Source: Vibrio bathopelagicus (GTDB lineage Bacteria > Pseudomonadota > Gammaproteobacteria > Enterobacterales > Vibrionaceae). From it: 64,000 nucleotides of DNA. Both the position numbers and the translations under genes were made by a program. The notes below the pieces were generated by a model. It was not told the origin of the DNA. It worked only from the letters and a program-made list of their open reading frames with translations, and did not search any database. Of this stretch, positions 6,434 to 62,980 are shown piece by piece (position 1 is the first letter of the stretch; each line of letters opens with the position of its first letter). Location of the stretch: positions 1,550,001 through 1,614,000 of the forward strand of contig NZ_CP062500.1 in the NCBI RefSeq assembly GCF_014879975.1, given 5' to 3'.

Positions 6434-6685
6434 TAACAATTCCCTCGTTTGTAATTTTTCTATTTTGATAATGTTTTGTGCGCCGTGCAGTTAACAAGAC
6501 CAGTTCACTTTTTCATGTTGATAAATAGATAGATACTGAAAAGGGTTGAATTAAATTTCCTCAATAATTCAATAACTTGTATTACTAGAAGTGTTGTTAT
6601 GGTGAAATTGTATGCAACTGGAAGTAAATTGTTTGATGGGGCTCAAACCGTTTTTAGAAAAATGAGGCGTTATTATCGCTACTTT

Positions 6686-43021: not shown

Positions 43022-43342
43022 TTTTTGTCCCTAAAAAATTTAATCAGATTGCTATGTTCTATGCTAGTAAAGCGTAGTGGAATTTGGTGGAAATGCATGA
43101 TTTCAGGAGGGTTAATTATTGGTTTTGGAATCCAAAAGGAAATAATGGTACACCTATCTATGAATAGATATTTTATATGTTAACCTTTATTTAACAAAGA
43201 ATAACTACATGGATTGTGTAGTAGTGCGATCAAGGTTGAATAGTTCAGGGTTTAGTTTGCTAAGACCGAATAATTCAGAGGGACTTAGTCGTTCAAGTAA
43301 CTTTTCAAATCTAAAGTGGACTTGTTACAGGGAGAACGTACG
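43022..43342. other. Divergent intergenic region upstream of the orphan gene
   Basis: 321 bases between the HD-GYP regulator (left) and the unknown 409-residue gene (right). AT-rich in the middle. A partial direct repeat, AGTTCAGGGTTTAGTTTGCT-like then AATTCAGAGGGACTTAGT, is visible near 43240-43290 but is too degenerate to call. Confidence 0.4.
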
Positions 43343-48400: not shown

Positions 48401-48835
48401 GTCATTACCGAAGTCGTCAAGCTTATACGCTTCGTAGCCCATTTGAGTGATGATGCTTTTGTCTTTGTTTGGGTTTTGACTCAATAGTAAATAGATGGGT
48501 TGATCGTAACGACTGGTTAAGCGAGTTTTACGCTTCTGACCACTGATCATCCGTTTAAAATGATTTGCTAATTGCTTTTGTCTTTTCCGAATCAGTTCTT
48601 TATCCAAAGACTCTTCTTGTGATTTTGCGCTGCGTTTGATGAGCACCCAATAGCAAATGAAGCCGATAAGCGTAGAGACGATGGCGATAGTCGTCAGCGT
48701 CCACACTAAATAAGCATTGAGTGGTGTTAACAGAATGACACTAGAGGCGACGGTAAAAAAGGCGACAGAGGCTAGGGCAGAAATGCCTACTGTTTTCTTA
48801 ACGTTGCCTGACTTGTTTGATTTGGCATCCGGCAT
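45443..48835 (-). CDS. tssM: T6SS membrane-complex protein TssM (IcmF)
   Basis: 1130 residues. Two N-terminal helices (about 16-37 and 44-66), a cytoplasmic domain to about 410, a third helix near 420-440 (VLFTLSWIGLLAAVLLVI) and a large periplasmic domain. It forms the inner-membrane to outer-membrane spine with TssL and TssJ. The Walker A site of many TssM proteins should lie near residues 117-130, but here reads LLSQNPNKDKS, and the DTAGR strand is VSVSMGED, so the NTPase motif is lost. It starts 2 bases after the tssL stop. Confidence 0.93.
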   Translation of the reverse strand: MPDAKSNKSGNVKKTVGISALASVAFFTVASSVILLTPLNAYLVWTLTTIAIVSTLIGFICYWVLIKRSAKSQEESLDKELIRKRQKQLANHFKRMISGQKRKTRLTSRYDQPIYLLLSQNPNKDKSIITQMGYEAYKLDDFGNDIEFPILFWVSEHSILVSVSMGEDQHPEYLKTLSQSLTAWRPRQAANGLLLTTDVSSLLENNEQITQQADELKSTIKTFNQAFGVSLPIYNVISNMGSISDFCQFFSAFDESKRDEVFGATAPYSAHGGIDANWFNDEYDHLISELIANMSNALAGQLNQDYRNSIASAPFQFGLLKQNLWLFLNRLYRGEQLSDALQFRGFYFTHDGQSSSQSDLLASAVSYSVGHEHYQQNEQIPVNQTLFAQYLMTHVILSEHELVGVNKRKENTLLVNQVLFTLSWIGLLAAVLLVIKFDFDFQNQRETRADVMLERYKEAISASPYDIENMADNIPNLFSLQRIYNLYKQPEPWYSLPFMPNPSIKEEVEEAYFTELQQVLIPSMENTIEKDLFVYVNLEDQSQTLSLLNNYRLLFNKDRTNVQELKNYYVRTLQDQGEADSINIAQLEVLLNDIFARNLTPIKSNHDLESLAKKVITQTGIETLLYEHIQSSTIYAKRVDIRGELGENFDSVLQFSPSYAGYLVPYIYTPTGFNELDLSVNSPTLKSALQSYEGVAGAYPSALELHRISRELKQTYQNDYINYWRDLVRNVEVKEVADPTQLKNTLTSLSEASNNPLVSLYSTIAKYTYVELEIPAKGDKEQDPASMPIQDPDKKESARQISLSFQSYKKQVSANDQGKKPIDNLLTAFINAKKWGDKFYETKEPQKVAFDTLSVTLQAGNPIASLSSLSNNHLTVAEELINKVVHQSNETVMSLAHDYLNTVWSKEVYQPYQQRLASFYPFNRKSKSDVSVADVKAFFVTNGIVDKFSQTRLNGFIKNSDEAPYLPGLLPGTGLSITPEVWTMIDKAADIKNALFLADPSNILINFQLKAVDMTPNITEFSIISDKPIFTYRHGPTLWSQQSWQGDAKFIEKLGIQLNAQDSTIGQNTVKGTWSWFRLFEPNVNFTSAQDTQVEFVYGDSKVKLTIKTQGQSNPFVPGFFSGFSLPSGI

Positions 48836-48837
48836 AA

Positions 48838-50040
48838 TCAGTTAGACTCTTCCTTGTTTAAGTCATGCGCAGAAGTGCGAACAATAATGGCGTTTATTTG
48901 GTCGCTTTCTACGAACCAAGCTTTGATTGTTCTCGCTTCTTCTGAGGTGTTGGCTCTTAATATCACTCGATAGTATTTCTTGTAAGGTGAGATGATTGGC
49001 TCATAAGCTGACGGAGATAGATTCTTGATGAAAGCTTGGGCATTTTTCTTATTTGAGAACGTCGCGAGTTGCACCAACCAATTGGTTGAGCTTGGCGTGA
49101 AGTTAGTCGTTTTTGAGGCTTCTACTGCGTCAGCTTTACTCGCGTGACGAGGAGGGTTTTCCAAGTCGTTATCTTGGCTGATGAAGACAATGTCTTGGAT
49201 TTCTCCAGATAGAACATAGCGTTGGCTAAAGTTCGGTAAAAAGGTGAAATCACGCGATCGCTGTGCGTGGGTTTTGTTGTACCAGAACTCCGTTAAACCA
49301 ATACTAGTTGCTATCAAACAAAAGAAAAACAAGCTGGTAATGAAGTAACGTTTACGTCTAGTCGGTTTTCTTACGTCAGGTAGTTTTACCTTCGTGCGGC
49401 AGTGAACGCCACTCGCGGTACGATATTGACTGATGGTTTGTTCTAATTGATGAACGAATGCTTTTAACTGTTCAGCGCCGCCTTCGCGATATTGGCCTTT
49501 GAATCCAATATTGATGAAGAGGTAGATAATCTCCAGCAGATCGATCAGCTTGTGTGGTTGTCTTGCGGCTTTTTCAGCAACAGAGAAGAACAGTTCACCG
49601 CCATTACGCATGCCAAACAGATCGCTAAGTAGGGTTTTATTTTCCCAGCCGCGTTTCTCCCCCCACTCGGTGTAGATGATGAATTCATCAATGACTACAG
49701 CGTACAAAAAGCAAAGTTTATCGATAACGGCAATAGGGTAGGTAAGCTCGGTTGCTTGAGCCTTTATGTCGTTAATACCTTGAATAAACTGCTCTCGGAA
49801 AACGGTTAAATCTTCGGGTTCAGACAGCGTTGAGATTTTGAGTGTTTTGGTCAGCAAATCACTACTGATGTTGATCAGTTGATTCTCTGCCTTATCAAAG
49901 TGACGCAGAAACTCTTCTTGGGTGCTGGTGGAGTGCACCGCAACTAATTTAGACAAAGCTTGGTCAGACTCTGTATTCGCAGAGCTTTTTGATGCTTTAT
50001 CTATAACCAGTGTTTCTTCGTCTAAATAATCCATGGCCAT
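48838..50040 (-). CDS. tssL: T6SS TssL (DotU) with C-terminal SPOR domain
   Basis: 400 residues. The DotU domain fills about 35-215 (the conserved core reads FLYAVVIDEFIIYTEW), with a single membrane helix at 233-250. After a linker, residues about 321-388 form a SPOR domain (NWLVQLATFSNKKNAQAFIKN, YYRVILRA). Many TssL proteins stop after the helix, and others carry an OmpA-like peptidoglycan domain. A SPOR module would instead bind glycan strands lacking stem peptides, concentrated at the septum. The start overlaps the tssK stop (TAATG). Confidence 0.9.
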   Translation of the reverse strand: MAMDYLDEETLVIDKASKSSANTESDQALSKLVAVHSTSTQEEFLRHFDKAENQLINISSDLLTKTLKISTLSEPEDLTVFREQFIQGINDIKAQATELTYPIAVIDKLCFLYAVVIDEFIIYTEWGEKRGWENKTLLSDLFGMRNGGELFFSVAEKAARQPHKLIDLLEIIYLFINIGFKGQYREGGAEQLKAFVHQLEQTISQYRTASGVHCRTKVKLPDVRKPTRRKRYFITSLFFFCLIATSIGLTEFWYNKTHAQRSRDFTFLPNFSQRYVLSGEIQDIVFISQDNDLENPPRHASKADAVEASKTTNFTPSSTNWLVQLATFSNKKNAQAFIKNLSPSAYEPIISPYKKYYRVILRANTSEEARTIKAWFVESDQINAIIVRTSAHDLNKEESN

Positions 50041-51371
50041 TATCTCAACGCGTATAGAACGACTTCGAGAGCGGGTATGCGAGCATCGACGTGCAGCGCA
50101 ATCGCATCACGCGTATCAAGCATATCTAACCAATTCCGATCTTTGGTATCGACTTCAAAATAAGCGACACCTTGCATCGGTTTTAGCTCACTCGGTGCGA
50201 TAGGAAGTGGCGTTAACGAAATGCCAGACAGCGAGCTTCTCACTAACTCAACAATCTTGTTGTTACTGCTTAACTTGGCTGAAATAGGGAACAGTTCATT
50301 AAGCTCTGTGCTGCTGATATCGGACTTAACACTGAGAACGAAACGACGGTTATAAACGCTGCTAGGGTCTTTGATTAATGTGCGAAGTAAACGGCGTTTC
50401 TCAAACAGTGAAATGTCCCACTTGAATTCGATAACCGAGTCTTGTTGAACCAGGGTGAGTAAGTTTCTTAGGCTCGAAAACAGTGGGTTAAAGTTGTCGT
50501 AGAGCTTGTCATATTTTAAAGGCTGGCACTCATCTGGAATTGCTGGTGTTAACGCCATGACTTGAGCTTCAAACTGTTTCAACTTTGAATAAAGTTCGTG
50601 TGTCGGGTATTTGGTGTTACTGATGGTTAATTCAAACCACGGTAGCCAAGTGTTGAGTGTTTGAAGCCATAGGAAATCTTGCATCATAGACTGAGGACTT
50701 TTTTGCCCTTGGCCAGCCTCGATGCGTTTAAGAAGGTTTTGAGCTCGGTTACTTACCAGCGCATGAATCTCTTTGACTCGTTCGCTAAGGAGAGTTGAAG
50801 CGCCGTAATGTAAGCAGGCAGGGATAAAGGCTCTATCGAGCATGACTTCATCAGAGTCGCTGATCTCTAAGATCTTAGCGACGGGAATTAGGGTAAAACC
50901 AGACGTGTCTTCTCCAGCGAATTTGAGGCTGATATTAAGCTGAGCGACATCAACTTCAACACTGGCATTTTCAGAGGTAGACGTGTCGAAGACATTGATT
51001 GAACGTGTGATGTAACGGCTTTGTTCTTGGCCATCTTCGCTGTAATCATTGTTGCCTTGTAAGGAGATTGGCAGAGCAAGGTAAACGATGGTTTCAATGG
51101 TACCTTGAGGAATGTCGACTACGATCTCTTGCTTGAGATTGAATTGGGTTCCATCAGGGAACACACCAGAACAGCTTGGAATAGACAGCTTACCGATCTT
51201 CAATAGATCGTGGTTAAGTACTAACTCGGTGATGCCGAAGAAAGGGGCAAAACCAGCCAGTGTTTCGATATTCTGACGAATGTAATTTTGCACGTAACGG
51301 TCTTGCTGCTGAAAGTGCTGAGGAGCAATAAACATCCCTTCTTGCCAAACTACTTTTTTGAAAGCGTCCAC
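50040..51371 (-). CDS. tssK: T6SS baseplate protein TssK
   Basis: 443 residues from a GTG at 51371 with AAGGA 6 bases upstream. This gives the conserved N-terminus VDAFKKVVWQEGMFIAPQHFQQQDRY. The 19-residue extension to 51428 is lysine-rich, overlaps tssJ and lacks support. TssK is the trimeric adaptor that joins the baseplate to the TssL/TssM membrane complex. The frame ends in the start codon of tssL. Confidence 0.93.
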   Translation of the reverse strand: MDAFKKVVWQEGMFIAPQHFQQQDRYVQNYIRQNIETLAGFAPFFGITELVLNHDLLKIGKLSIPSCSGVFPDGTQFNLKQEIVVDIPQGTIETIVYLALPISLQGNNDYSEDGQEQSRYITRSINVFDTSTSENASVEVDVAQLNISLKFAGEDTSGFTLIPVAKILEISDSDEVMLDRAFIPACLHYGASTLLSERVKEIHALVSNRAQNLLKRIEAGQGQKSPQSMMQDFLWLQTLNTWLPWFELTISNTKYPTHELYSKLKQFEAQVMALTPAIPDECQPLKYDKLYDNFNPLFSSLRNLLTLVQQDSVIEFKWDISLFEKRRLLRTLIKDPSSVYNRRFVLSVKSDISSTELNELFPISAKLSSNNKIVELVRSSLSGISLTPLPIAPSELKPMQGVAYFEVDTKDRNWLDMLDTRDAIALHVDARIPALEVVLYALR

Positions 51372-51412
51372 GTAAAATCCTTTTCTATTATTTTTATATC
51401 TTGGCTTTTTTA

Positions 51413-51901
51413 TTAAAAGATTTGCCACCAGCTGGAGTCAGGCTGTATCACGGCTAACTCTGCTTTCTTCCCTGTAATCGTTAACTCTAAGGTTTGCTCT
51501 GGATCGGAAGGCATCATCAAAACGGTCTTGGTTGTGCCATTCTGGTAATCAGCGAATTCGACCAGAGCTGCAATGTATTGCGTGTTCTTGTTGACGTCTA
51601 ACGTCAGCTTTTGCTCTGAGTTAGGTAGTACAATCGGTAATACCTGTTTTGAAACTAAGTTTGCCGCCAATAGCTGCAGGTCATTGTTGTACAAATCTAT
51701 AAACGGAAGTTGTTTGAACAGTTGTTGATCCGTTAATTGGTAAAGCCTAACCACAACAGGGTTGGCTTGGTCGTCGTTGTATTGGTTGACTGTCGCATCC
51801 GCTTTAACGGTCAACGAGTATTGAGTGACAACAGGAGCAGGCTCCGATGAAGAGCATGCTGTGATCAGTAAACAAAGCGATAAGAGTATGAGACGTTTCA
51901 T
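51413..51901 (-). CDS. tssJ: T6SS outer-membrane lipoprotein TssJ
   Basis: 162 residues. A lipoprotein signal has the lipobox LITAC, with the lipidated cysteine at 16, then SSSEPAP. The remainder is the transthyretin-like beta-sandwich of TssJ (VVVRLYQLTDQQLFKQLPFIDLY). It binds the periplasmic end of TssM at the outer membrane. Its start overlaps tagH by 4 bases, and its stop is 41 bases before tssK. Confidence 0.92.
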   Translation of the reverse strand: MKRLILLSLCLLITACSSSEPAPVVTQYSLTVKADATVNQYNDDQANPVVVRLYQLTDQQLFKQLPFIDLYNNDLQLLAANLVSKQVLPIVLPNSEQKLTLDVNKNTQYIAALVEFADYQNGTTKTVLMMPSDPEQTLELTITGKKAELAVIQPDSSWWQIF

Positions 51902-52848
51902 TCTCTCTCCTCACTTTGCTTTTGCATGTTCTCCATAAACAGCGCTTTGAACTGACGTCTGAAATCTCCGTTGTCTTGGCGGTGTTGGAAGTGCTTTCTG
52001 TAGATCTTCCAATATTTTTTATCTTTGTTGGTAAAAATACCGCTACTCACGTATTCACTAAACTGGTTCTCAAGCTGCTTTGGTGCAAACTCATTCAAGA
52101 ACTGATCAACCGTCTGTTCTAATGCATCGAACAGCGCTTTTTGTTGTAGCTGTGGGTTCTGTAAATACTGTTGATTCTTCTCAGTTAACGTAATGAGTTT
52201 GTCGATCGACTCTTCAATACGGGTATTGTTCTCAACATTAACGGGTAAATACTCTAATTCAGTAGCAGAGAGAGCATTGCTATCGCGATGAGCGATTTCG
52301 TCCACTTCAATGTTGGGTACGACTTTGTCGTCGTCTAAGTCTTCAAAAGGATCAGACGAGAAGGGGTCGTCACTCAATACATTCTTTGAAGAGAAGTTTG
52401 AGGTTTTCTTAACTGTCGCGACTTGCGGTGCGTCATCTAAAAAGTCTGTGTCGCTGTCATCCAGTTTTAAGTTGAAAGGTTCTATAAAATTGTCATCCTG
52501 TGTGGTGTTATTGGCCGCGCTCATTTTTGGATCACTCAATAGGCTCACCAGTAGTGTGTAGCCACCCAGTTTGATGATGTCACCATCGGTAATGACGTAC
52601 TCTTTCTCTTTTGCCAGCGACTTATCGTTCAACGACACGCCGTTGTTACTGATGTCTTTAATCACGTAACCACGGTCTGTAGGGTAAAGTTGGCAGTGAG
52701 TTCTTGAGATCCATTTCGTTTGATCGGGTAGCGCAATATCACATGATGGAGAACGACCTAAGCTTCCGCCACTTTCGGGCAGATACGTCACTCTAGAGGA
52801 AACGACCTCTTCAGCAGGTACAGAAATCATGTGGACACTGATGGACAA
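51898..52848 (-). CDS. tagH: T6SS FHA-domain protein TagH
   Basis: 316 residues from a TTG at 52848 with AAGGAG 6 bases upstream; an ATG six codons on has no site. The FHA domain (about 18-100) has the phosphothreonine-binding residues: GR at 31-32, SRTH at 48-51, NNG at 68-70. An acidic linker (about 120-175) and a C-terminal T6SS-specific domain (VDQFLNEFAPKQLENQFSEY) follow. It is the expected partner of the Ser/Thr kinase at the end of the operon. It lies 3 bases after the periplasmic binding protein gene of the inserted cassette. Confidence 0.92.
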   Translation of the reverse strand: MSISVHMISVPAEEVVSSRVTYLPESGGSLGRSPSCDIALPDQTKWISRTHCQLYPTDRGYVIKDISNNGVSLNDKSLAKEKEYVITDGDIIKLGGYTLLVSLLSDPKMSAANNTTQDDNFIEPFNLKLDDSDTDFLDDAPQVATVKKTSNFSSKNVLSDDPFSSDPFEDLDDDKVVPNIEVDEIAHRDSNALSATELEYLPVNVENNTRIEESIDKLITLTEKNQQYLQNPQLQQKALFDALEQTVDQFLNEFAPKQLENQFSEYVSSGIFTNKDKKYWKIYRKHFQHRQDNGDFRRQFKALFMENMQKQSEERE

Positions 52849-52851
52849 TGG

Positions 52852-53580
52852 CTACTCCTTGCACTTGGATATGGCTGAGTTAAAACTATCTAGGAAACCT
52901 GAGTAGGTTTTAAGGAATCGATTCGAAAAATAGACCCCCATATCCTTGGTATCTAAATTCGTCGAATTGAAGTAATCGAGTGGTAAAGAGGCTTTATCTA
53001 GTTCTCTTTTAAAGACCAACTCATCCTCTAAAACAACATCAATTTCCCTTTGTTTTAAAAGTCTTAGTAATACTTTAGCATCTCGTGGCTGCTTAACGAC
53101 GTTAAATCCATTACGTTTTAGCCAAAACCATTTGTTTGAGCCAAATTTGGCAGAAAAGTTAAGGTTTAACTTTGACAATTCATCAACCTTCGGTTCCACT
53201 CCTGGGCCAAAATACCAATTCAAGGTTTGTTTTGCGATAGGTGCCGAGAGCGTTGCGTATTCATCACGTTCTGAAGTTTGGGTTGCAACGAAGAAACCGT
53301 GTTGGCTGCCACTATGCACGCGCAGTTGTGCGTCAGACCAAGTGGTCATGGTAAGTTGGTAAGGCTGTCCCATCATACTTAAGGCACATTTAACCTTGTC
53401 TAAAGCAATTCCTTGCATTGTTGCGTTTTCGTAGCTTTGGTAGGGCGGCCAATCTTGTGTGGTAAGCATTAGACGAGATGGCCCAATTTTTACTTGAGCA
53501 GAAGCACTCATCGACCAAAACGTCGAGATGAGTAGAGTGACTAGCGATAATCTGATGGTAGAGGCTCTAGTTAACATCAT
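52852..53580 (-). CDS. Periplasmic solute-binding protein (SBP_bac_3-like) inside the T6SS cluster
   Basis: 242 residues. A signal peptide ends near residue 28 (SMSASA, then QVKIG). The body resembles family 3 binding proteins: LTTQDWPPYQSYENATMQGIALDKVKCAL-type start, TQTSERDEYATLSAPI and the second lobe with LKQREIDVVLEDEL. No amino-acid ABC permease or ATPase is nearby. The start overlaps the preceding binding protein by 14 bases and the stop touches the tagH ribosome site, so it is locked into the T6SS transcript. A sensory role with the MFS-sensor fusion is an inference. Confidence 0.82.
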   Translation of the reverse strand: MMLTRASTIRLSLVTLLISTFWSMSASAQVKIGPSRLMLTTQDWPPYQSYENATMQGIALDKVKCALSMMGQPYQLTMTTWSDAQLRVHSGSQHGFFVATQTSERDEYATLSAPIAKQTLNWYFGPGVEPKVDELSKLNLNFSAKFGSNKWFWLKRNGFNVVKQPRDAKVLLRLLKQREIDVVLEDELVFKRELDKASLPLDYFNSTNLDTKDMGVYFSNRFLKTYSGFLDSFNSAISKCKE

Positions 53581-54565
53581 TAGAGTGTCCTATCACTTCA
53601 GATATCTTCAAGATTGACACTGGCGGGTAATAGTCGAGCTTATGAGCGGCTTCGATATTAACAATATAGGAATATTGGCTAAGTGACTCTATCGGAATGT
53701 CTGAAGCTTTCTGAGTTCCTTTCAATATGTTTTTCGCTTTGTATCCAGCAAATTGACCAACATTGTAGTAACGGCTGACAATACCAAATAAGGCCTTATG
53801 CTTTCTTATTGGGCTTTCGGTTGCCGAGAATGTGGGGATACCTTTCGAATGTAGCCCTGATACGACTTCCCCTCCTTGGGTGATGATGTAAGAATCAGGT
53901 GGTAAATAAGCCATATCGACACCATCACGTTTCATATTGTTTATCGTGAGGTTAATTAAGTCGCTGTTTGACTTGTTTTTATCAATGTTAAGTGGGTACA
54001 ACATAACACGCTTGTTATAAATTTCCGATAACTCCATCATTTTATTTGCGGTGATAATCGAATTATTTTCGTCAGCGTTATATATAACCCCAAGGCTTGA
54101 AATGTTATTGAGTTTTTCTATCGCTTTAAATTGTATTTCATGGGGTACGATGTGCGATACACCAGTAAAATTTCTATCGTCTGAAGATAAATCAGCAATC
54201 AACTTAGAACCTACAGGGTCGGTAACGATACTGAATACAACTGGCGTCGTGCTGTTTATTCTAAACTCGCTAGGTTCTGTGTAAGTTCCTAATAAATTCA
54301 AGGTGATAGTAGTGCCGAATGAATAAATAAGATCGGCATCTTTATATTCTAGATCTCTAATATGTTGTTTGAGCTGTGCTATATCTCTATTTGCATCAAG
54401 AATTGTAAATCTTACATCGACGTGTTGGGATAAATAATCCATGAAGCCTTGTTCGGCATCGGTTACCCCTCGCCATAATAAAAGAATGACATGTTTTTCG
54501 TCACTTTTAGCGAAGGAGAGTGGGATAATTAAAATGAAGCTAAGAACGAACACTATAAATCTCAT
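53567..54565 (-). CDS. ABC_sub_bind-family periplasmic protein inside the T6SS cluster
   Basis: 332 residues with a signal peptide ending near 19 (IPLSFA, then KSDEK). The protein matches the ABC_sub_bind (TrpX-like) type: DADLIYSFGTTITLNLLG, TPVVFSIVTDPVGSKLI, GVIYNADENNS, PPDSYIITQGGEVV and SRYYNVGQFAGYKAKNIL. These normally serve TrpXYZ-type ABC importers, but no permease or ATPase is nearby. The start overlaps the MFS-sensor gene by ATGA and the stop overlaps the next binding protein by 14 bases. The three genes form one coupled block. Confidence 0.85.
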   Translation of the reverse strand: MRFIVFVLSFILIIPLSFAKSDEKHVILLLWRGVTDAEQGFMDYLSQHVDVRFTILDANRDIAQLKQHIRDLEYKDADLIYSFGTTITLNLLGTYTEPSEFRINSTTPVVFSIVTDPVGSKLIADLSSDDRNFTGVSHIVPHEIQFKAIEKLNNISSLGVIYNADENNSIITANKMMELSEIYNKRVMLYPLNIDKNKSNSDLINLTINNMKRDGVDMAYLPPDSYIITQGGEVVSGLHSKGIPTFSATESPIRKHKALFGIVSRYYNVGQFAGYKAKNILKGTQKASDIPIESLSQYSYIVNIEAAHKLDYYPPVSILKISEVIGHSNDVN

Positions 54566-57129
54566 GATTGAACCTCTAGCTTCTGTTTATCAGACTTCAG
54601 AAATATTGAGAAAAACACAATCAAACTAAAGGAACTCGCAAGTAATGACGCGCCAAATATAAGGATAGTTTGGTCGTAACCGAAGATACTCAAACAAACT
54701 CCGGCTAGCATTGGCCCTGCTATATTACCGATACGCTCTGTAAGCCTAAATATGCCGATGATTTTACCTTTCTCGATGCCTTGACCAGAAAGTAGGTCGA
54801 TGACTAAAGGTATTTGAGGAGAAACACAGATGCCGTGTGCGATACCAATAATAATCACAATAAGTAGCAACCCTAATGTGCCTTGGAAAAAATAGAAGTT
54901 GAGCAAGGCAAGGGACGAAAGTAATCCGCCAATAAAAATAAAGGCCATTTTGTTTTTGAGTTTATCGACCAAAATGGCACTCAATGGCGAAATTAATATG
55001 ATGGCAAGGCCATAGGCCATAATCACACGCCCAGAAACAGAGCTACTTTCACCAAGGAACTGCAGATAGACAGGGCAGATGTAGTAAAGGAAGCCAGTGA
55101 GTACGATCTTCGCAGGTATGGCACTGAATATTGTGATTAAGGCAAAGTACTTGTTACTTAACAGTAGCTTGAAATCTTTTAGTTTGACGGGCTTGCTTGA
55201 GTTTCCAGTGTTTGATTTTTCAAAAAACACATAGACGAGTAACACACTGAGTGTTGCTAATAGTCCGGCGAGCATAAACGTTTCTGAGTATCCAAGCTTC
55301 TCCGCTAAGATTCCTCCGATAGCAGCACCACATAAAGATCCAGAGAAGAATGATGATAAGAAAGTCGCCATGCCTTTGGTTCGATTAGAGTCATTGGTGG
55401 TATCGGACACATAGCCTTGCGCCGAAATGAACACGATACCGTAGCCGACTGCCGTGAAAGCGCGCGCTATCAGCAAAAATTCTAAAGATTGAACGAAAGC
55501 CGTCGCGACTAAACCGACACAAGTGATCAGCCCTCCTGTCATTAACGAGTGTCTTCGGCCTACTTTGTCTGACCAATAACCTGCGAACGGCAGCGAGATA
55601 GCCCAACAAAGCATGAACAGGGAAATGGGTAAGCTAGTGACTAGGTTTTCAGGTATCCAGCCGGTTGTGTTTTCTAGCGAAGAAACAAACCTAGGGAAAA
55701 AGGCCAGCGAAGACGCTTCTGAGAACACCAATAAAAATAGGGGTAAGCGAATGAATCGAAAGTCTTGTTTGTCGATATCTTGAGATGGCTGATTAGGGTT
55801 TAGCTTAGTAATGGCTTGATTAGTCAGGCTGAGCAGTTTGCCAATTTCATCGCGCGTAGAGATCTTCGCCAAGTGATTAACGATGTCGCGGTTCACCAAC
55901 ATGAAGACTTTCTTTACTTGGTTCCAAGGCGAAATAATCATGAAGTTGCACATAAACAGAATGATTTCGGCCACCACAAGGCAAGAGGCGACCAAGACAG
56001 TAATCATGTCCATGACGCTTTCTTTGAGCAGATTGATGATCAAATTATTATCTGTGGTGACGTTTAGTTGAATCGTATGACTGTTGTTGAGTGAGAACGT
56101 CGATTCTCGGATAGAAGGGTGCTCAACTTGTTCTGCCGGATAACGATAGGAAGAGCCAGACTGTCCTTCGAAGTTAATCGAGAGAATCTCGCTATGGTGG
56201 TCAACGAAGAAAGCAAACTCCTGTTCTAAGCCGTGCAGCTTGTCGTCAGGAACTCCTTTGTCGAGTAACCCTTTAATCATCTGATTTAATGAGTCGCCAA
56301 TTAGGTTAGACTTTTGCTCGAGTTTAATCTCATAAATCTGCGAAAACTTGTCTAGCGATTGGTAAGAAACCCCAAGGTTAGCAATGATCGTCAACAGGAT
56401 GGCAAGAGAGATGATAAACACTGGAAAGTGCTTGTTTTTCAACTTCTCAAACTTAGACAATGAGTTCGGGGATTGCAGCGCCTTGTGAGCTTGGGTAATC
56501 GTTGGCAGTAATTCATCCGAATCGGTAGCGGATTCAAATATTGCAGTTGCGCCTTTGACTCGGCCTACAATACCTTTCAATAGGTACTTCAAGGAGGCAA
56601 AGGCAAACAGGCAAGAGAGTAGTATCCAAATTGCCGAATAGAGGAACTGGAGCTTGAGCAAGAAGGTTTTCTGTTGCTCTAACAGAGTTGTGGAATAGTA
56701 GAGCTTTACCTGGCCTTCGACTAAACCAAAGGAGTTAGTGATATCGAGTGATAGCTGACGGTCATTTTCTTGATTTCCCTCTCCGGTACCAAAGAGCCGC
56801 TCGCCTGAACTAGAGACGACTACCAAGGCTGTAATGCCGTCAACGATTTTTAAACGGCGGTCTAACATGCTTTGTATATTTGATATAGCTGAAAGAGGTA
56901 AGCCTAAACTGATGGCTTGGTTGATATCGTTATGTGTTTCTTCCAACACAATCTCATAGATAGAATCTGAGGTTTCAGTCAGCCTTTTCTCGAAATTAAA
57001 ATAGTTTAACGTGGCATTTAAGGTGATGGAAAACAGCAAAACCGCCATGATGGCCAACATCAACTTAACCCGAAGAGACAGGTTAAGTAATGAAAGTTTG
57101 GTCAAGGTTTGGCTGGCTTTGCTGTTCAT
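54562..57129 (-). CDS. Double periplasmic sensor / HAMP-like / MFS transporter fusion
   Basis: 855 residues with an unusual architecture. TM1 at 22-42, sensor domain one about 44-158, TM2 160-183, a cytoplasmic stretch, TM3 236-255, sensor domain two about 256-372 and TM4 374-398. A HAMP-like segment (DEIGKLLSLTNQAI, about 427-440) follows. Then comes a complete 12-helix MFS transporter (about 462-850) with motif A as GYWSDKVGRR at 517-526. No kinase, cyclase or methyl-accepting part is present. The transporter itself is therefore the only visible output. It begins 10 bases after clpV and overlaps the next gene by ATGA. Possible roles are a ligand-gated exporter or a transceptor. I know no experimentally studied relative. 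Confidence 0.85.
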   Translation of the reverse strand: MNSKASQTLTKLSLLNLSLRVKLMLAIMAVLLFSITLNATLNYFNFEKRLTETSDSIYEIVLEETHNDINQAISLGLPLSAISNIQSMLDRRLKIVDGITALVVVSSSGERLFGTGEGNQENDRQLSLDITNSFGLVEGQVKLYYSTTLLEQQKTFLLKLQFLYSAIWILLSCLFAFASLKYLLKGIVGRVKGATAIFESATDSDELLPTITQAHKALQSPNSLSKFEKLKNKHFPVFIISLAILLTIIANLGVSYQSLDKFSQIYEIKLEQKSNLIGDSLNQMIKGLLDKGVPDDKLHGLEQEFAFFVDHHSEILSINFEGQSGSSYRYPAEQVEHPSIRESTFSLNNSHTIQLNVTTDNNLIINLLKESVMDMITVLVASCLVVAEIILFMCNFMIISPWNQVKKVFMLVNRDIVNHLAKISTRDEIGKLLSLTNQAITKLNPNQPSQDIDKQDFRFIRLPLFLLVFSEASSLAFFPRFVSSLENTTGWIPENLVTSLPISLFMLCWAISLPFAGYWSDKVGRRHSLMTGGLITCVGLVATAFVQSLEFLLIARAFTAVGYGIVFISAQGYVSDTTNDSNRTKGMATFLSSFFSGSLCGAAIGGILAEKLGYSETFMLAGLLATLSVLLVYVFFEKSNTGNSSKPVKLKDFKLLLSNKYFALITIFSAIPAKIVLTGFLYYICPVYLQFLGESSSVSGRVIMAYGLAIILISPLSAILVDKLKNKMAFIFIGGLLSSLALLNFYFFQGTLGLLLIVIIIGIAHGICVSPQIPLVIDLLSGQGIEKGKIIGIFRLTERIGNIAGPMLAGVCLSIFGYDQTILIFGASLLASSFSLIVFFSIFLKSDKQKLEVQS

Positions 57130-57139
57130 TAGTTAAGAC

Positions 57140-59752
57140 CTACTTAATAGATAAATCGAAGTCGGCACTGTTGTTCGTCGCGCTAACAGTGACTTGAGTT
57201 ATCGGTTCGCTACGGCTGAGTCGACCAATACATTCTTCAGCTAATCTAGGCATCAATGAACGGTTGATGATTTGCTCGACAGCCCGGCCACCCGTCGTTG
57301 GGTCGGTATTGCGATCAACTACGAACTGAATGAAATCCGCATCCCAAGTGAACGAAGCCTGATACTGCTCCGCAAGTTTTTTCTTAATTCGATTGAGAGA
57401 GATCTCAGTGATCTTCGCGAGTTCTTCATCATTAAGCGGGTAGTAAGGAACAATGGTTGTTCGACCTAAGAAAGCAGGTTTAAAGTACTGCTGCAGATCT
57501 GGACGAATTGCTTCAAGTAACTCATCGTTGTTGATACGGTCTGTGGTTTTAGCGCACACATCACAGATAGCTTGATCGGCTGCGTTCGATGTCATGATTA
57601 TGATGGTGTTTTTGAAATCGACGGTTCGGCCTTCACTGTCTTTGATATGGCCTTTATCGAAGATTTGATAGAACAAATCATGTACGCCAGGGTGCGCTTT
57701 TTCCATTTCGTCTAAAAGCAGTACTGAGTAGGGGTTGCGTCGGATAGCTTCTGTTAACACACCACCTTCACCAAAGCCGACATAACCGGCAGGTGAGCCG
57801 AGTAACATAGAGATCTTATGCTCCTCTTTAAACTCGGTCATGTTAATCACGGTAAGGTCGTTACTACCTCCGTACAGTTGCTCCGCAAGCGCCATGGCGG
57901 TTTCGGTTTTACCTACACCACTTGGGCCACACATTAAGAACACACCAATAGGTTTTCGGTTATCCGTTAAACCAGCACGGGATATACGAATCGCTTTTGC
58001 GAGCTCATTCTTCGCGACATCTTGGCCAATCACTCGAGTATTAAGTTCGTCTTCCAAGGTAAGCAGCTTAGCGATTTCATCACTCATCATGTTGCCCACA
58101 GGGATACCCGTCCAATTGGCAATGACTTGCGCAATGGTGTTGTCGTCAACCATCGCATAAACTAACGGCTCTTCACCTTGTATATCGGCTAATTCAGTAC
58201 GCAGAGTATCGAGTTGTTTCTGTTTAGTGGCGTCGACTGCATCTTGCTCTTGTTCTTCGGTTATTTCTTGTTGAACAGATTTGATTTGATCTACTAGCTC
58301 GATCTCTTTTTCCCAACGTGTGTAATAAGCAGCCAATGCTTTTTGGTTTTCTTCAATTGATAGAGTGAGCTCTTTGATTAACTCTGCGCTATTCGAGAAC
58401 AAGGCGTCTTCTTTCTCGAGCGCCGATTTCTCGTTTTCTTGATAGCGAATGGTCTGCTCTAGCGTTTCCAATACCTCAGGTTTCGCACCTTGTGTCAGTG
58501 CAATTCGTGCACTGGCGGTATCAAGCAGGCTGATCGCTTTATCGGGTAATTGACGACTTGGTAGGTAACGGATTGATAAGTTAACCGCTGCTTCGATCGC
58601 TGATTCTGCGATAAACGCACCATGGTGAGCTTGCAATGAAGCGGCTACGCCACGAAGCATTTGCATGGCATCTTCAGCGTTAGGTTCTTCAATGGTTACG
58701 ACTTGGAATCGACGTGTTAGAGCCGGATCTTTTTCGAAGTACTTTTTGTATTCCGCCCAAGTTGTCGCTGCGATGGTTTTGAATTCACCACGAGCTAGCG
58801 CTGGTTTGAGAAGGTTAGCTGCGTCGTTTTGTCCGGCAGCGCCGCCTGCACCAATGAGAGTATGAGCTTCATCGATGAAAACAATGATAGGAATTTCAGA
58901 ACTTTTCACTTCGTTGATGACATCTTTTAGGCGGTTTTCAAACTCACCTTTAACGCTTGCTCCAGCTTGCAGTAATCCAAGATCTAGAGAGTGAATTTGT
59001 ACACCTTGCAACGCACTAGGAACTTCATCTGCGGCGATTCTTAGCGCTAAGCCTTCGACAACAGCGGTTTTACCCACACCGGGTTCACCTACCATAATCG
59101 GGTTGTTTTGGCGCTTACGACATAAGATATCAATCGCTTTTCTTACTTCGGAATTACGGCCAGAAATTGGGTCGATATTGCCGTCAATTGCTTGTTGAGT
59201 CAGGTTGACGGTGTATTTGCTTAATGCGTCGTTGCCAGCGGGTGTAGTGTCGATACTTCCATTAGCAGAAGGGGCGGCAGAGTTACGTGCAATAGGGGTT
59301 TTCTTGATCAGACCTTGCAGAGATTCTAATGACACACTGCTTAATGTTTCAAGCTGCAGGGTACTCACGCCGAGCACGTTTTGTTGCATCAGCGCCTGAA
59401 TAAGGTGCAAGCTGACAATCTCACCGTGACCGTAGTTTACAGACGCAATCATCCAAGCATCTTTGATCAATTCAGTTAAGCTGTGGCTTAATGTTGGCTG
59501 ACCTTCATTGCCTTTAGGCAACATAGAGATTTTCTTGGTCAGTTCATTAACTAGTGCGTCCAATGAAAGCTTTTGAGATTCGCACAGCGCCATGAGTTTT
59601 GCGTCTTTCTGCGAGATGAGTTGAAGAATCCAGTGTTCTGTTTCTATCGCTCCAACACCTTGGTTCATCGCCGCGCCCGCCGACGCTTCCAGCGCTTGCT
59701 TTAGCTCGGGAGATAGCTTTCCTACTAAGTTAGTGAGAGTTACTTGTGTCAT
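57140..59752 (-). CDS. tssH: T6SS sheath-recycling ATPase TssH (ClpV)
   Basis: 870 residues from the ATG at 59752 with AAGGA 7 bases upstream. An N-terminal Clp-N double repeat (about 8-155) precedes AAA domain one with GEPGVGKT at 222-229 and FIDEAH at 292-297. A middle coiled-coil region (about 420-530) and AAA domain two with GPSGVGKT at 609-616 and LLLDEMEKAH follow. It is complete. It disassembles contracted TssB/TssC sheaths. It lies 46 bases downstream of tssG and directly precedes the inserted sensor/MFS cassette. Confidence 0.96.
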   Translation of the reverse strand: MTQVTLTNLVGKLSPELKQALEASAGAAMNQGVGAIETEHWILQLISQKDAKLMALCESQKLSLDALVNELTKKISMLPKGNEGQPTLSHSLTELIKDAWMIASVNYGHGEIVSLHLIQALMQQNVLGVSTLQLETLSSVSLESLQGLIKKTPIARNSAAPSANGSIDTTPAGNDALSKYTVNLTQQAIDGNIDPISGRNSEVRKAIDILCRKRQNNPIMVGEPGVGKTAVVEGLALRIAADEVPSALQGVQIHSLDLGLLQAGASVKGEFENRLKDVINEVKSSEIPIIVFIDEAHTLIGAGGAAGQNDAANLLKPALARGEFKTIAATTWAEYKKYFEKDPALTRRFQVVTIEEPNAEDAMQMLRGVAASLQAHHGAFIAESAIEAAVNLSIRYLPSRQLPDKAISLLDTASARIALTQGAKPEVLETLEQTIRYQENEKSALEKEDALFSNSAELIKELTLSIEENQKALAAYYTRWEKEIELVDQIKSVQQEITEEQEQDAVDATKQKQLDTLRTELADIQGEEPLVYAMVDDNTIAQVIANWTGIPVGNMMSDEIAKLLTLEDELNTRVIGQDVAKNELAKAIRISRAGLTDNRKPIGVFLMCGPSGVGKTETAMALAEQLYGGSNDLTVINMTEFKEEHKISMLLGSPAGYVGFGEGGVLTEAIRRNPYSVLLLDEMEKAHPGVHDLFYQIFDKGHIKDSEGRTVDFKNTIIIMTSNAADQAICDVCAKTTDRINNDELLEAIRPDLQQYFKPAFLGRTTIVPYYPLNDEELAKITEISLNRIKKKLAEQYQASFTWDADFIQFVVDRNTDPTTGGRAVEQIINRSLMPRLAEECIGRLSRSEPITQVTVSATNNSADFDLSIK

Positions 59753-59798
59753 AGTCAATTCCTTGTATCTCTATAATCTATACATTCCGTATTACGAA

Positions 59799-60731
59799 CT
59801 ACAAAAGCAAAATCTTTACGGTTTCATTGGGGTTACGTTCCGGTGCTAGGTAGTCAATCTCACCTAAACGAGCGGCAATAGAAACGTTGCTTGATAAACG
59901 GGGTCTGGTTAAATATGAACGCTTAACGTTCAGGTAAATGGCAACAGGTGTGCTGTCTTTTAAGTAATGCTGTGTTAAAGACAGCACCGCTTTGGCAAAT
60001 TGGTCATCTTGTTGAATTTCTAAGAACTCATGTCTGTTTTCCGGTGTGACAAAAATACTCAAGTTATTAAAATGAGCGAGGCAGGTTCTTCCAACTAAAA
60101 AGCCTTGCCCTAAGCGGCTGTTGAAATCCCGATTTGTGCCGATTCGAGTCAATGAATCGGCAGGTAAAAGGCGTCGTTCAAAGGTTTTACATTCAACCTC
60201 GATCGAGTAAGGGAAAAAATCATTTAGGATCTTTTTCAAAGCGGTAAGGCTACGGCTTTGTTGGCTCAGTAACAGTGAATATTGCAGGTACTCTTTGTGT
60301 TCTTTTCCTAGCGCTGCAAAGTGATTCAACAACGCTGTTTTTTTCGGGTTTTGTTCGCTTTCAACGAGTAACCAACGTCGTGCATTGGTTCGATAGGTAA
60401 TTTCAAAGTGTCGTTGATTAAACACGTCTAGAAAATCTTGCAGTGAATGATCTTCATTGTGTATCGCAGCTAACAACTCTTCGTAAATATAATTGGGTAT
60501 GACGCCTTTAACGCCAGAGAGCGCCTGTTTCGCTAATCTAAGTTTTGCTTTATTTCCCTTTAACGAGAAGTACTGAATCTCTTGTGGGTTACCTGTCGGC
60601 ATAGCCTCAGATTTTAATTGGATCTGCAACGGCGTTGTATTTTGGGATTGAAGTTGCTCCAACAATCTCATTGCCTGAGAGAAGTCGTACTTTTCAGGCT
60701 GAGTCGCTAAATCTTCGATGAAATGTTTCAT
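59799..60731 (-). CDS. tssG: T6SS baseplate protein TssG
   Basis: 310 residues, normal length. MKHFIEDLATQPEKYDFSQAMRLLEQ is the standard N-terminus, and FNQRHFEITYRTNARRWLLV with LARGR-like segments are in the middle. The TssG family is called by similarity and position between tssF and clpV. It pairs with TssF in the baseplate wedge. An 82-base gap separates it from tssF, the largest between complete T6SS genes here apart from the cassette. Confidence 0.9.
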   Translation of the reverse strand: MKHFIEDLATQPEKYDFSQAMRLLEQLQSQNTTPLQIQLKSEAMPTGNPQEIQYFSLKGNKAKLRLAKQALSGVKGVIPNYIYEELLAAIHNEDHSLQDFLDVFNQRHFEITYRTNARRWLLVESEQNPKKTALLNHFAALGKEHKEYLQYSLLLSQQSRSLTALKKILNDFFPYSIEVECKTFERRLLPADSLTRIGTNRDFNSRLGQGFLVGRTCLAHFNNLSIFVTPENRHEFLEIQQDDQFAKAVLSLTQHYLKDSTPVAIYLNVKRSYLTRPRLSSNVSIAARLGEIDYLAPERNPNETVKILLL

Positions 60732-60813
60732 ATCATCTCCCTATGACCATCGTTCTTGCTATGCTTAGCTCGCATAGTTACTGACATTCCCAGAGCTACC
60801 GACATTCGCTGAG

Positions 60814-62565
60814 TTATAAGCACAATTGACTACCGTGAATTTTAGGGTACTTCTTGATGACACCATCTCTTCCGTAGATACGGACCTTGAGTTGGATATA
60901 TCGGTCAAAGCTACAAAACTGCTGGAAGAAGCGGTTCAACACATCGGCAAATGCTAAATAAGGGGAGGTCGCATCAAGTGTCAGTTCAATCTCTGTTCCG
61001 GGAGAGAATACGTTTTTTCCCAACACGCGAATTGCGGACACTTGGGAGTTGAATGTAATTGAGTGAATCATCTGAATTTCAGCGCTTGATACCTGTTCAC
61101 GACTGCACAAACTCAACATGTGCTTAAGGTCGGCCACTGGATTACTTGATTGCACCAATGATGAAAAGTTTGTGTTCAGCAAACTAATAAATTCCCAATG
61201 GATGTTTTGGTCTACTTCTTTTGGAATGGGTGCTGAAGGTGGATAAATAGGTGAAAACTCACCGGGTAAGTCAATACTCTCTAAGCACTCTAAATTGCCG
61301 CTCACACCACAAGCCTGTTTACCATTAGTACAAAGTAAATGAGTGCCGAGCAGCTTACTGAATTCAGTACTTGGCGTTCCAGATAACGAAATCGCAATGC
61401 TCATTTCACCGAAGTGATTGTGTTTACTTTGCCAGTAGTCGTACTGTTGGTTGTGTGAATATTTTTCTTTAAAAAGAGGGACTAAAGGTATTTCACCATT
61501 GGGTGTGATTTCGTAAACGTTCTGAATTTCAATGATTTCGATATTGTTGTCACTGTGCGCGTCGGCATTGACCGGAACCGAAAGTGTTCTGTGATCGTAT
61601 GGGATCGGTTCGCCGGTTTGTTCGAACAAGTTAATCGCGGGTATCACATTGAGTTTAAAGACATCTTTATTGAATAGACGGATAAACTCAGATGGTAATG
61701 AAGACATGAACAAGTTAATGACGAGTTCAGATTCGTCAAACTGGCTGGCGTATTCGGCAAAATTCTTAAGTCTAAAGAACTGGCGCTTCTCTTTAAAAAA
61801 GAAGAATTCATTAATCAGTTGGTAACCCGTGAATTGATTACCGTGCTCAGGTAAAAACTTGAATTCAAGATCGCTGATTCGATTTTTAAGCTGGTGGCTA
61901 TCAACCGTGATGTGTCGAGCGCATTCACTGTCTGAAATAGAGATCGATAAGGTGTTGTTTAGAAGAAGCTCGACTAGTGAGTCTGCGTTGTTTTCAAACC
62001 CTTTGACGAAGAAATCGAGGTCATTCAATTCTAAATGGCTGAAATGTACTTCTGGGTCGCCAGTACTTAAAGAAATCTGAACAACCGCAGAACTTTGATT
62101 GGCCGATTTCGGTCTGTTAAAGCTAAATGGCGCGCTTAATGCCTTGATGTTACCCAGGTTAAACGGGGCAACTTTGAGTTCGTCAACGGTTCTAAATAGG
62201 CATTCGTTTTTGGTGTTGGTGCTCGAAAACAGCGAACCTTTTGGCAAAGTACTTGATTCAATGGGGCCATCTTCGGCAAGTAATTCAAGATAAGCGACAC
62301 TAGGAACCGTTTGAATATAGGAAGGGTAAAGAACACTTAAAATACCTTCAATAACCTCAGGTAGCTGCTCTGAGAGTTTCTTTTCTACCTTCGCATTCAG
62401 CAGTGCGACGCCATCTAATAGACGAGCCATGCTAGGGTCTTCAATCTTACCTTGATGAATATTGAGCTTCTCAGCGTGCGTCGGGTATTCCTGACCAAAC
62501 TGCCCTAATGAACGGCGCACAAAGGCCAGTTCTTGCTCGAAGTAACGCATAATAGGTTCAGTCAT
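60814..62565 (-). CDS. tssF: T6SS baseplate protein TssF
   Basis: 583 residues. The N-terminus MRYFEQELAFVRRSLGQFGQEYP and the following DPSMARLLDGVALLNAKVEKKL are diagnostic for TssF (VasA). Its start overlaps tssE by 8 bases. With TssG, TssE and TssK it builds the wedges of the baseplate. Intact. Confidence 0.94.
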   Translation of the reverse strand: MTEPIMRYFEQELAFVRRSLGQFGQEYPTHAEKLNIHQGKIEDPSMARLLDGVALLNAKVEKKLSEQLPEVIEGILSVLYPSYIQTVPSVAYLELLAEDGPIESSTLPKGSLFSSTNTKNECLFRTVDELKVAPFNLGNIKALSAPFSFNRPKSANQSSAVVQISLSTGDPEVHFSHLELNDLDFFVKGFENNADSLVELLLNNTLSISISDSECARHITVDSHQLKNRISDLEFKFLPEHGNQFTGYQLINEFFFFKEKRQFFRLKNFAEYASQFDESELVINLFMSSLPSEFIRLFNKDVFKLNVIPAINLFEQTGEPIPYDHRTLSVPVNADAHSDNNIEIIEIQNVYEITPNGEIPLVPLFKEKYSHNQQYDYWQSKHNHFGEMSIAISLSGTPSTEFSKLLGTHLLCTNGKQACGVSGNLECLESIDLPGEFSPIYPPSAPIPKEVDQNIHWEFISLLNTNFSSLVQSSNPVADLKHMLSLCSREQVSSAEIQMIHSITFNSQVSAIRVLGKNVFSPGTEIELTLDATSPYLAFADVLNRFFQQFCSFDRYIQLKVRIYGRDGVIKKYPKIHGSQLCL

Positions 62566-62980
62566 AGTTATCTTCTTCTAAAGAGGTCGTTAAGTCACTT
62601 AATGCGATTTTGGAATCAAAGATAAGGTCCTGTTCACCATGGCTGGTTTTTACCTTGGCGATGATGTTGAACGAAAGCGAGTTGTCACCCTCTTTACGTT
62701 CTCCAAGCTCGACAGAGATGTCATGTAATCGTGGTTCAAAGCTCTTTATCCATGTTTCTATGCGCAAGGTGAGCTGAGTCTTTTCTAAGGTCGCACTCAG
62801 TAACTGAATATCTTCAATACCAAACTTCAAATTAGAACGGTTTACTTCAACCAACCTGTTATCGATATCGGTCAATGATGCCTCTGCTTCTAAGAGTTTG
62901 GTGAGATGGAACTTGATGTCTTCAATCTCAGGGTCCTGATAGGGCTTTGAATCACTGATGAAGGTTTTCCAAAAGCTCAT
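62558..62980 (-). CDS. tssE: T6SS baseplate protein TssE (gp25-like)
   Basis: 140 residues. The gp25-like domain is recognisable by SDIDNRLVEVNRSNLKFGIEDI-type start and the C-terminal strand set (FNIIAKVKTSHGEQDLIFDSKI). TssE nucleates sheath assembly at the baseplate. It overlaps the tssC stop by one base and tssF by eight. Confidence 0.9.
   Translation of the reverse strand: MSFWKTFISDSKPYQDPEIEDIKFHLTKLLEAEASLTDIDNRLVEVNRSNLKFGIEDIQLLSATLEKTQLTLRIETWIKSFEPRLHDISVELGERKEGDNSLSFNIIAKVKTSHGEQDLIFDSKIALSDLTTSLEEDNYD

Follow-up and report, generated by a model that had tools for sequence, protein, structure and literature searches.

Among the described systems close to the locus treated here are the following two kinds. 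TagQRST-PpkA-Fha1 of Pseudomonas aeruginosa is a threonine-phosphorylation pathway of a type VI secretion system (T6SS), whose kinase has a transmembrane helix and a periplasmic part and works with a TagQRST-type ATP-binding cassette (ABC) complex. UhpC and the SLC5-histidine kinases such as CbrA are transporter-sensor proteins, in which a transporter fold is coupled to signal transduction. In the 64,000-nucleotide stretch of Vibrio bathopelagicus analysed here (contig NZ_CP062500.1, positions 1,550,001 to 1,614,000, hereafter the window), three genes, called the cassette, are placed between clpV and tagH of a T6SS cluster: an 855-residue protein that joins two Cache-like domains and a HAMP-like linker to a major facilitator superfamily (MFS) transporter, a 332-residue periplasmic binding protein of family PF04392, and a 242-residue periplasmic protein named SBP242. 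The cassette is, on firm grounds, a real, conserved and unnamed accessory set of one T6SS lineage, and half of it is an independent sensory module used elsewhere. Among the titles and abstract openings that the literature searches turned up, with most subscription papers outside their reach, none presents SBP242 as part of a T6SS or describes a module of sensor, MFS and PF04392 proteins.

All three cassette genes are located on the minus strand of the window. The 855-residue fusion (54562..57129) is defined by its open reading frame (ORF), Pfam MFS_1, an AlphaFold model and HHalign; the PF04392 protein (53567..54565) by ORF and Pfam, with a Sec-type signal peptide recognised by eye; and SBP242 (52852..53580), which has the fold of an amino-acid solute-binding protein (SBP), by ORF, Pfam and model, its signal peptide also by eye. 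Ten bases separate clpV from the fusion gene, which overlaps the PF04392 gene by 4 bases; this in turn overlaps the SBP242 gene by 14 bases, and 3 bases lead on to tagH. The original prediction gave these coordinates, these spacings and this three-gene set, all of which were reproduced from the ORFs, and its picture of one tight operon-like run agrees with the same gaps and overlaps. The minus-strand order is tssE, tssF, tssG, clpV, the 855-, 332- and 242-residue genes, tagH, tssJ, tssK, tssL, tssM and a kinase gene, and past the window edge follow, on the same strand, vgrG, a DUF6931 gene, PAAR, tssA, hcp, tssB and tssC (DUF6931, tssA and hcp by Pfam; vgrG, PAAR, tssB and tssC named from sequence or position). 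Since the same-strand T6SS genes continue past the edge, the cassette lies within one long operon-like run. A scan for promoters and terminators gave fewer sites than shuffled sequences (20 vs 33.5; 15 vs 17.5). Chance does not explain the arrangement, since 27 loci share this gene order, as does a 28th (L007) as far as its contig reaches. In the two-contig source genome there is one full-length match to the 855-residue protein, together with four weak matches to its MFS part, and two ClpV genes exceed the NCBIfam cut-off, one at the cassette cluster and one on the second contig.

The 855-residue protein reaches 149.4 bits with MFS_1, whose cut-off is 33.4. An AlphaFold model was built from 43 sequences (mean pLDDT 83.3, pTM 0.78); its top Foldseek matches in the PDB include VMAT2, NorA, VMAT1, MdfA and SotB, and the 50 matches listed (TM to target 0.72–0.88) are all MFS folds. 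By profile and fold the MFS part is a DHA1-like transporter, and transport is predicted; in its core G517, G524 and R556 are invariant and D521 nearly so (43 rows). Upstream, the model consists of two modules of a long helix, a four-stranded sheet and a long helix (strands at 99–145 and 315–360), followed by helices 362–415 and 428–443 at the place expected of a HAMP domain, and the MFS helices start from 457. Residues 427–430 read DEIG, which may be a HAMP feature. No match to a Cache profile or to PF00672 (HAMP) was found by Pfam in the window protein; PF00672 is weakly matched in a relative (L044, E 0.0037, below the cut-off) and was precomputed for P0083 and P0088. The architecture of sensor, HAMP-like linker and transporter given in the original prediction is supported.

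A single gene encodes both the N-terminal Cache-like part and the MFS part in the 28 loci of the window type (L007 as far as its contig reaches) and in L033 and L044; in 49 of the 79 loci compared, the Cache-like part has a separate adjacent gene (in L076 seen as a single 26-bit match at the contig end). When 17 of the 49 stand-alone genes, called Cache1 (alignment A7), were compared by HHalign, they aligned with residues 6–197 of the window family at a probability of 99.7 and an E-value of 6.4e-26. From this match and the separate adjacent genes, the 855-residue protein is read as a fusion of two usually separate genes. One MFS gene of the Vibrio sample (L119:4006-7194, genome G015) is interrupted by about 0.6 kb and appears as two ORF pieces, though the search table has the frame open.

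The second cassette protein belongs to PF04392 (ABC_sub_bind; 94.2 bits, cut-off 25.9), its PDB relatives are 3lkv, 3lft and 6hni (E 2e-15 to 2e-10), and against the TrpX equivalog model it reaches 105.6 bits, far under the cut-off of 390. A PF04392 homologue follows the MFS gene in 78 of the 79 loci, the exception being L007, whose contig stops inside the MFS gene. That is to say, the PF04392 protein is a standing partner of the MFS gene and not a stray ABC binding protein recruited to a T6SS. The original prediction had regarded both binding proteins as devoid of ABC partners and repurposed as receptors; in agreement with the first of these points, no ABC permease or ATPase was assigned among the cluster ORFs (no dedicated search was made).

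SBP242 scores 23.8 bits with SBP_bac_3 (PF00497), below the cut-off of 26.4. By Foldseek its AlphaFold model (pLDDT 78.4) resembles ArtJ and binding proteins for glutamine and histidine (TM about 0.6, E about 1e-10), and the fold matches include periplasmic binding protein (PBP) domains of sensors, such as 3h7m and 7ejg. R105, E185 and D186 are invariant in the 25 aligned sequences of the slot type (28 at hand), and R105 is kept in 18 rows of a wider alignment of 19, throughout which the cysteines C65 and C240 are invariant. Judged by the modelled fold, R105, E185 and D186 may hold an amino-acid ligand.

The T6SS lineage was delimited, by a cut of our own, as 51 TssK places of 295–337 bits in 148 Vibrio genomes. 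Nine TssK rows below 295 bits were left out, including two nearly full-length ones (277–279 bits) and a pair of split pieces scoring 286 and 206 bits, all with no SBP242 or MFS row nearby, and rows above 360 bits were taken to belong to other kinds of T6SS and set aside; SBP242 rows of at least 85 bits were taken (57) and lower ones dropped, and one of the two pieces of the interrupted G015 gene was taken. In 50 of the 51 clusters SBP242 is no more than 6 kb from TssK, and in 43 the MFS gene is present, 37 at slot distance and six about 20 kb off, where the slot (between clpV and tagH) means 5–6 kb and the operon head about 20 kb, both assigned by distance, with some clusters read gene by gene; counting in three clusters just below the cut gives 50/54 and 43/54. 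The one cluster without SBP242 (L126, G032:C45) is also without the MFS pair and without clpV. Conversely, 43 of 44 MFS-family genes (E <= 1e-18) in the sample are within 30 kb of a lineage TssK, the exception in G111 (L120) being a stand-alone fused gene with a PF04392 partner, and a lasting tie to a T6SS lineage is thereby supported. Six weaker SBP242 relatives (85–128 bits) are found away from the lineage TssK. Outside Vibrio, TssK was sought in the 35 genomes of the order with a hit to the SBP242 profile, the two tables being compared by reading: all nine TssK places (314–340 bits) have a strong SBP242 match (at least 296 bits) about 2–3 kb off, and SBP242 matches below 210 bits have no TssK neighbour of that type. 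SBP242 is a marker of one T6SS lineage and the sole cassette gene specific to it; it also occurs there without the MFS gene.

The content of the slot varies. Besides the window type, with MFS fusion, PF04392 protein and SBP242, there are slots with SBP242 alone (L121–L125, and L118 of V. furnissii, a species that has its MFS gene and PF04392 gene at the operon head, L117), with a D-Ala-D-Ala-ligase-like ATP-grasp gene and SBP242 (L112), and with ATP-grasp, MFS, PF04392 and SBP242 genes (L113, L129, L130 and L132). The ATP-grasp gene belongs to T6SS3-like clusters (L112:13128-14294, L113:7691-8842, L129, L130, L132) and is based on Pfam in L112 and L113 and on profile matches in the other three. 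All four non-Vibrio slots that were read contain MFS, PF04392 and SBP242 genes, three of them with the ATP-grasp gene as well. The fourth, L131, is probably from the same Motilimonas genome as L021, and G061 (L117, L118) likewise matches L059 (V. furnissii).

To follow the MFS gene and its partners beyond this lineage, 84,980 species genomes were scanned with alignment A1, and the best 80 of 87 relatives were kept, which correspond to the 79 distinct loci. T6SS genes are found within the fetched stretch in 44 of them: 28 in the clpV-tagH slot (L007 counted here though showing clpV only), nine directly upstream of vgrG, four after tssG (Oceanospirillum) and three divergent from tssB. In the other 35 no T6SS cluster was found nearby by iterated models (L055 is counted here, its lone ClpV-model match being discounted), and in 25 of these 35 genomes TssK (PF05936, E <= 1e-8) gave no hit; this absence is held to a lower standard, with stretches of under 20 kb (3.6 to 17 kb) at eight of the 35 loci and metagenome-assembled genomes of unstated completeness at several. 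Exclusivity of the module to T6SSs is refuted by these 35 loci. The Cache-like, Cache-like-HAMP-like-MFS and PF04392 set is a widespread module and not a T6SS-specific one. The view of the cassette as one unit built by the T6SS is not supported: under the refuting condition set by the original prediction itself, two of its three genes are widespread without a T6SS. Overall, the interpretation first given to the window is partly supported, ligand gating and a host or competitor metabolite being its hypothetical part.

In Alphaproteobacteria the module keeps other company. Of the 19 loci there, 16 encode a SpoIIE-type protein (a relative of the SpoIIE-HATPase protein of L054) no more than 2.4 kb downstream of the module and on the same strand; of the rest, L067 is without this protein, and the contigs of L076 and L084 are too short to show what comes next. 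Three such proteins were scanned with Pfam and gave SpoIIE in all three, HATPase_c_2 and dCache_3 in two, and HAMP in all three (in L063 below the cut-off). A STAS-like gene (Pfam-scanned in L080) is present in 15 of the 16, on the opposite strand in L063. An Rsb-type partner switch has this make-up. Such neighbours would again point to signalling of the protein Ser/Thr-phosphorylation type, and they are counted in favour of a sensing role. In 13 alphaproteobacterial loci phmmer finds the module together with a formyltransferase-like gene (L058:8129-9028, where Pfam names it), and an NMT1_3 periplasmic binding protein adjoins it at L034:8507-9871 and L055:13364-14734, in Oceanospirillum and Rhodocyclaceae genomes.

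The history of the module was examined on MFS trees (62 of 82 rows in the first; 47 in a careful one, from which long rows, near-copies and most slot-type rows were left out). On the 47-row tree the four T6SS arrangements form four separate groups, each one side of a branch with a support of at least 100/97, and the starred branches force at least three changes, a count that does not tell gain from loss. A single clade of all T6SS-linked rows is rejected on the same set by the approximately unbiased (AU) test (p-AU 1.8e-42). The candidate explanation that the operon-head version of V. furnissii-type clusters is the window's version moved is also rejected, with p-AU 8e-8 for a slot and head clade. 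Because long branches join the operon-head group and two alphaproteobacterial rows, the nearest kin of this group is unsure. A clade of slot (window) type and Oceanospirillum type is not rejected (p 0.124), nor is the slot MFS of the ATP-grasp type as sister of the window type (p 0.379; 45 rows), so that this slot MFS need not be an independent gain. In a quick TssC tree of 30 rows, one side of a starred branch (96*) contains the T6SSs of both slot and head types; V. furnissii, with a TssC that is split in two, was not included. Taken with the AU rejection, this grouping means that, within a single T6SS lineage, the modules come from two branches far apart in the MFS family. On the trees, T6SS linkage has no single origin, and the module appears to have become linked to T6SSs more than once.

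Some carriers have T6SSs that have been studied. In V. proteolyticus, T6SS2 had no activating condition detected according to excerpts of PMC9545535, and a slot with all three cassette genes is found at L025 (NZ_BATJ01000008.1, which fits vpr01s_08). V. coralliilyticus BAA-450 has two ClpV genes above the cut-off: one is 93.5% identical to the V. proteolyticus ClpV of the cluster that is T6SS1 by elimination, and the other (L013) is 83% identical to the window's ClpV and marks the cassette cluster. Elimination, together with the locus tags of hcp and vgrG in the portion of PMC11371242 used, makes L013 probably the T6SS2 of V. coralliilyticus, which is reported there as anti-eukaryotic, its activity being described by temperature and medium. 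V. europaeus is a further carrier (L016); three T6SSs of this species are discussed in PMC13249269, from which the string 'MFS' is absent. As reported in part of PMC5371669, homologues of VS_1324 and VS_1325 are missing from V. furnissii and V. fluvialis, and the left junction of the cluster of these two species carries an MFS gene and an ABC periplasmic gene. From their place beside VS_1326 (ClpB), VS_1325 and VS_1324 are probably the MFS and PF04392 genes, respectively; in the literature searched, only PMC5371669 and PMC5666596 were found for the tags VS_1324–1326 and vpr01s_08_01810/01820. A correspondence of the cassette to VP1403–VP1405 of V. parahaemolyticus is rejected, as VP1402 and VP1403 are among the sheath genes in the section of PMC4239648 consulted.

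Two further products of the cluster bear on what the cassette may do. The cluster encodes an FHA protein, TagH (51898..52848, minus strand; PF00498 58.7 bits and PF20232; 111.2 bits with TIGR03354, slightly below the cut-off of 120.25), and a 259-residue Ser/Thr-kinase-like protein (44710..45489, minus strand; PF00069 55.3 bits). This pairing is what Ppk/Fha-type control calls for; the transmembrane kinase with a periplasmic part and the TagQRST-type ABC complex of that control are not seen here, no ABC genes having been assigned in the cluster. The highest 19-residue hydropathy of the kinase is 0.62, so no transmembrane helix is predicted; its alignment shows the motifs HGDIKPSN and DFG, and some relatives depart from HGD/DFG. 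Since the kinase has no such helix, a periplasmic sensor would have to be another protein, and the cassette offers one. Within the cluster the kinase gene also changes fastest: compared with V. splendidus MOR1 (L006), its identity is 62%, and that of the other cluster genes compared is 91–99%.

It is proposed, at about even confidence, that the cassette serves one T6SS lineage as an input for sensing at the envelope, and that its two separable parts together bias T6SS assembly or firing. The MFS fusion and the PF04392 protein would form the first part, a transporter-coupled sensor: the PF04392 protein would bind a small periplasmic ligand, this ligand or the loaded binding protein would be read by the two Cache-like domains, the HAMP-like linker would pass this state to the DHA1-type MFS domain, and the MFS domain would move the ligand or a related compound and report to the cytoplasm through its own conformation. 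SBP242, the lineage-specific periplasmic amino-acid-SBP-like protein encoded beside tagH, would be the second part, and both would act on assembly or firing, most plausibly via the adjacent TagH and the helix-less Ser/Thr kinase at the operon end. The genomic statements are firm within the samples named, and the function is offered as a hypothesis. Several observations weigh against it. The module is found at the 35 loci without a T6SS nearby; its neighbours in Betaproteobacteria are mixed, including OEP efflux, an ABC exporter, a RamC/kinase/LanC protein and a radical SAM protein (Pfam), and such efflux and export neighbours fit a plain transport role. SBP242 stands alone, with MFS and PF04392 genes missing, in seven of the 51 lineage clusters, and D186 is replaced in the 19-row alignment by N in four (L112, L113, L121 and L125) and by Y in one (L118). 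The slot of V. proteolyticus T6SS3, a working, anti-eukaryotic system in excerpts of PMC9545535, has the ATP-grasp gene and SBP242 only, and VflT6SS1 of V. fluvialis, with operon-head genes at its left junction, was likely inactive under the conditions tested according to part of PMC5371669. The sensor domains, too, are loosely named: the stand-alone Cache1 genes match sCache_3_2 at best with E 0.001, in three of 17 members and below the cut-off, and a PDB profile search with the Cache1 alignment gave no PDB sequence match (spectrin and one microcompartment chain, E 0.02–0.6), hence the term 'Cache-like', the model topology being suggestive.

The strongest competitor of the sensing proposal is a transport system co-expressed with the T6SS and not controlling it, which would import or expel compounds met or released at target-cell lysis, or protect the attacker. 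It owes this rank to a well-conserved MFS core (the transporter fold nearest to VMAT, NorA, MdfA and SotB, with its invariant G517, G524 and R556 and nearly invariant D521) and to the efflux and ABC export genes near the module outside T6SSs; however, one would not usually expect a pair of Cache-like domains and a HAMP-like linker in a plain transporter, and the repeated linkage to phosphorylation-type signalling genes, kinase and FHA in the T6SS clusters and SpoIIE/STAS elsewhere, does not suit it, so this account is possible, with doubt prevailing. For SBP242 by itself, it could be that ligand sensing was lost and that the protein is now a structural periplasmic accessory of the T6SS lineage, the MFS/PF04392 pair being an unrelated optional passenger. 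The protein is present in 50 of 51 clusters and stays where the pair is absent (7/51) or about 20 kb away (6/51), its two cysteines do not vary in the 19 rows, its SBP_bac_3 score is under the cut-off, and D186 is changed in five of 19; but R105, E185 and D186 are kept in all 25 slot-type proteins, and the fold matches include the sensor PBP domains 3h7m and 7ejg, which makes a purely structural role quite unlikely. Neutral hitch-hiking, by a cassette unconnected with secretion in a clpV-tagH gap that is tolerant of insertions, would accommodate the varying slot content (ATP-grasp gene, MFS pair, SBP242 only). It is very improbable in view of the retention of SBP242 in 50 of 51 clusters, the four kinds of T6SS position (slot with or without ATP-grasp, operon head, after tssG, divergent from tssB), the rejection of a single clade for the T6SS-linked copies, and the single interrupted gene (L119) seen among window-type copies.

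Returning to the envelope-sensing proposal, a bolder form of it can be drawn: T6SSs of this lineage, anti-eukaryotic ones included, might be switched by a transporter-coupled chemosensor, made up of the Cache-like/HAMP-like/MFS protein, its PF04392 partner and SBP242, that reads an amino-acid-like metabolite derived from host or prey, firing being licensed via kinase and FHA protein, and the same module might feed SpoIIE/STAS switches in Alphaproteobacteria. This form is speculative and on the whole unlikely to hold in full; if it were true, protein Ser/Thr phosphorylation would have in sensor-gated MFS proteins a class of input that is general and has not been described. A recurrent sensor-MFS-PF04392 module is common to T6SS operons and SpoIIE/STAS-type gene sets, and the operon, with its near-constant binding protein and its sensor-transporter, offers direct, testable candidates for the T6SS trigger, two of them soluble and easily screened for ligands.

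The remaining genes of the cluster, all on the minus strand, are as follows. Upstream of the cassette are clpV/tssH (57140..59758; TIGR03345, 1149.9 bits, above the cut-off) and, at 59799..63930, tssG, tssF and tssE (ORFs, named from sequence and gene order) with a second TssC-like gene that leaves the window edge (62980–63930; VipB and VipB_2 matches by Pfam); downstream, tssM, tssL, tssK and tssJ occupy 45443..51901 (Pfam). The status of a T6SS cluster is thus supported by tssJ, tssK, tssL and tssM and ClpV through Pfam and NCBIfam and, just past the window, by tssA and hcp through Pfam, with tssE, tssF, tssG, tssB, tssC, vgrG and PAAR named from sequence and position. The second TssC-like gene comes after tssC in this T6SS lineage (window 62980–63930, minus strand; L085:1-1375), and TssL (48838–50040, minus strand) has a C-terminal SPOR domain by Pfam. 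Just beyond the window end and divergent from vgrG, a 1057-residue protein (L085:8975-12148, plus strand) contains SBP_bac_3, weak HAMP and HD-type domains and is another amino-acid-SBP sensor adjoining the same T6SS. At the other end, a 418-residue ORF (43316–44572, plus strand) with no Pfam match above the cut-off and no PHROG match converges on the kinase end. Farther off, an ORF at 4958–6439 (minus strand) looks by eye like a protein of the aerolysin type, no family search having been made.

Compared with the described systems, the window cluster shares with TagQRST-PpkA-Fha1 that envelope proteins, an FHA protein and a Ser/Thr kinase are all encoded in the T6SS cluster; it differs in having an MFS protein and two soluble binding proteins, with no ABC ATPase or permease assigned, and a kinase without a transmembrane helix. 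The SLC5/STAC kinases also appear in PMC9100948; compared with UhpC and CbrA, the window protein has its sensory domains upstream, the MFS as its C-terminal part, and no kinase domain. The likeness to PF04392/TrpX-type binding proteins consists in the PF04392 score above the cut-off and the PDB matches, whereas the partner of the window protein is an MFS gene and not a set of ABC genes. Finally, VflT6SS1 and T6SS2 and T6SS3 of V. proteolyticus belong to the same T6SS lineage as the window, and their authors note differing genes between clpV and fha; in the parts of PMC5371669 and PMC5666596 used, the junction genes are treated as flank, whereas in the present analysis those of V. furnissii prove to be a distant version of the module without the fusion.

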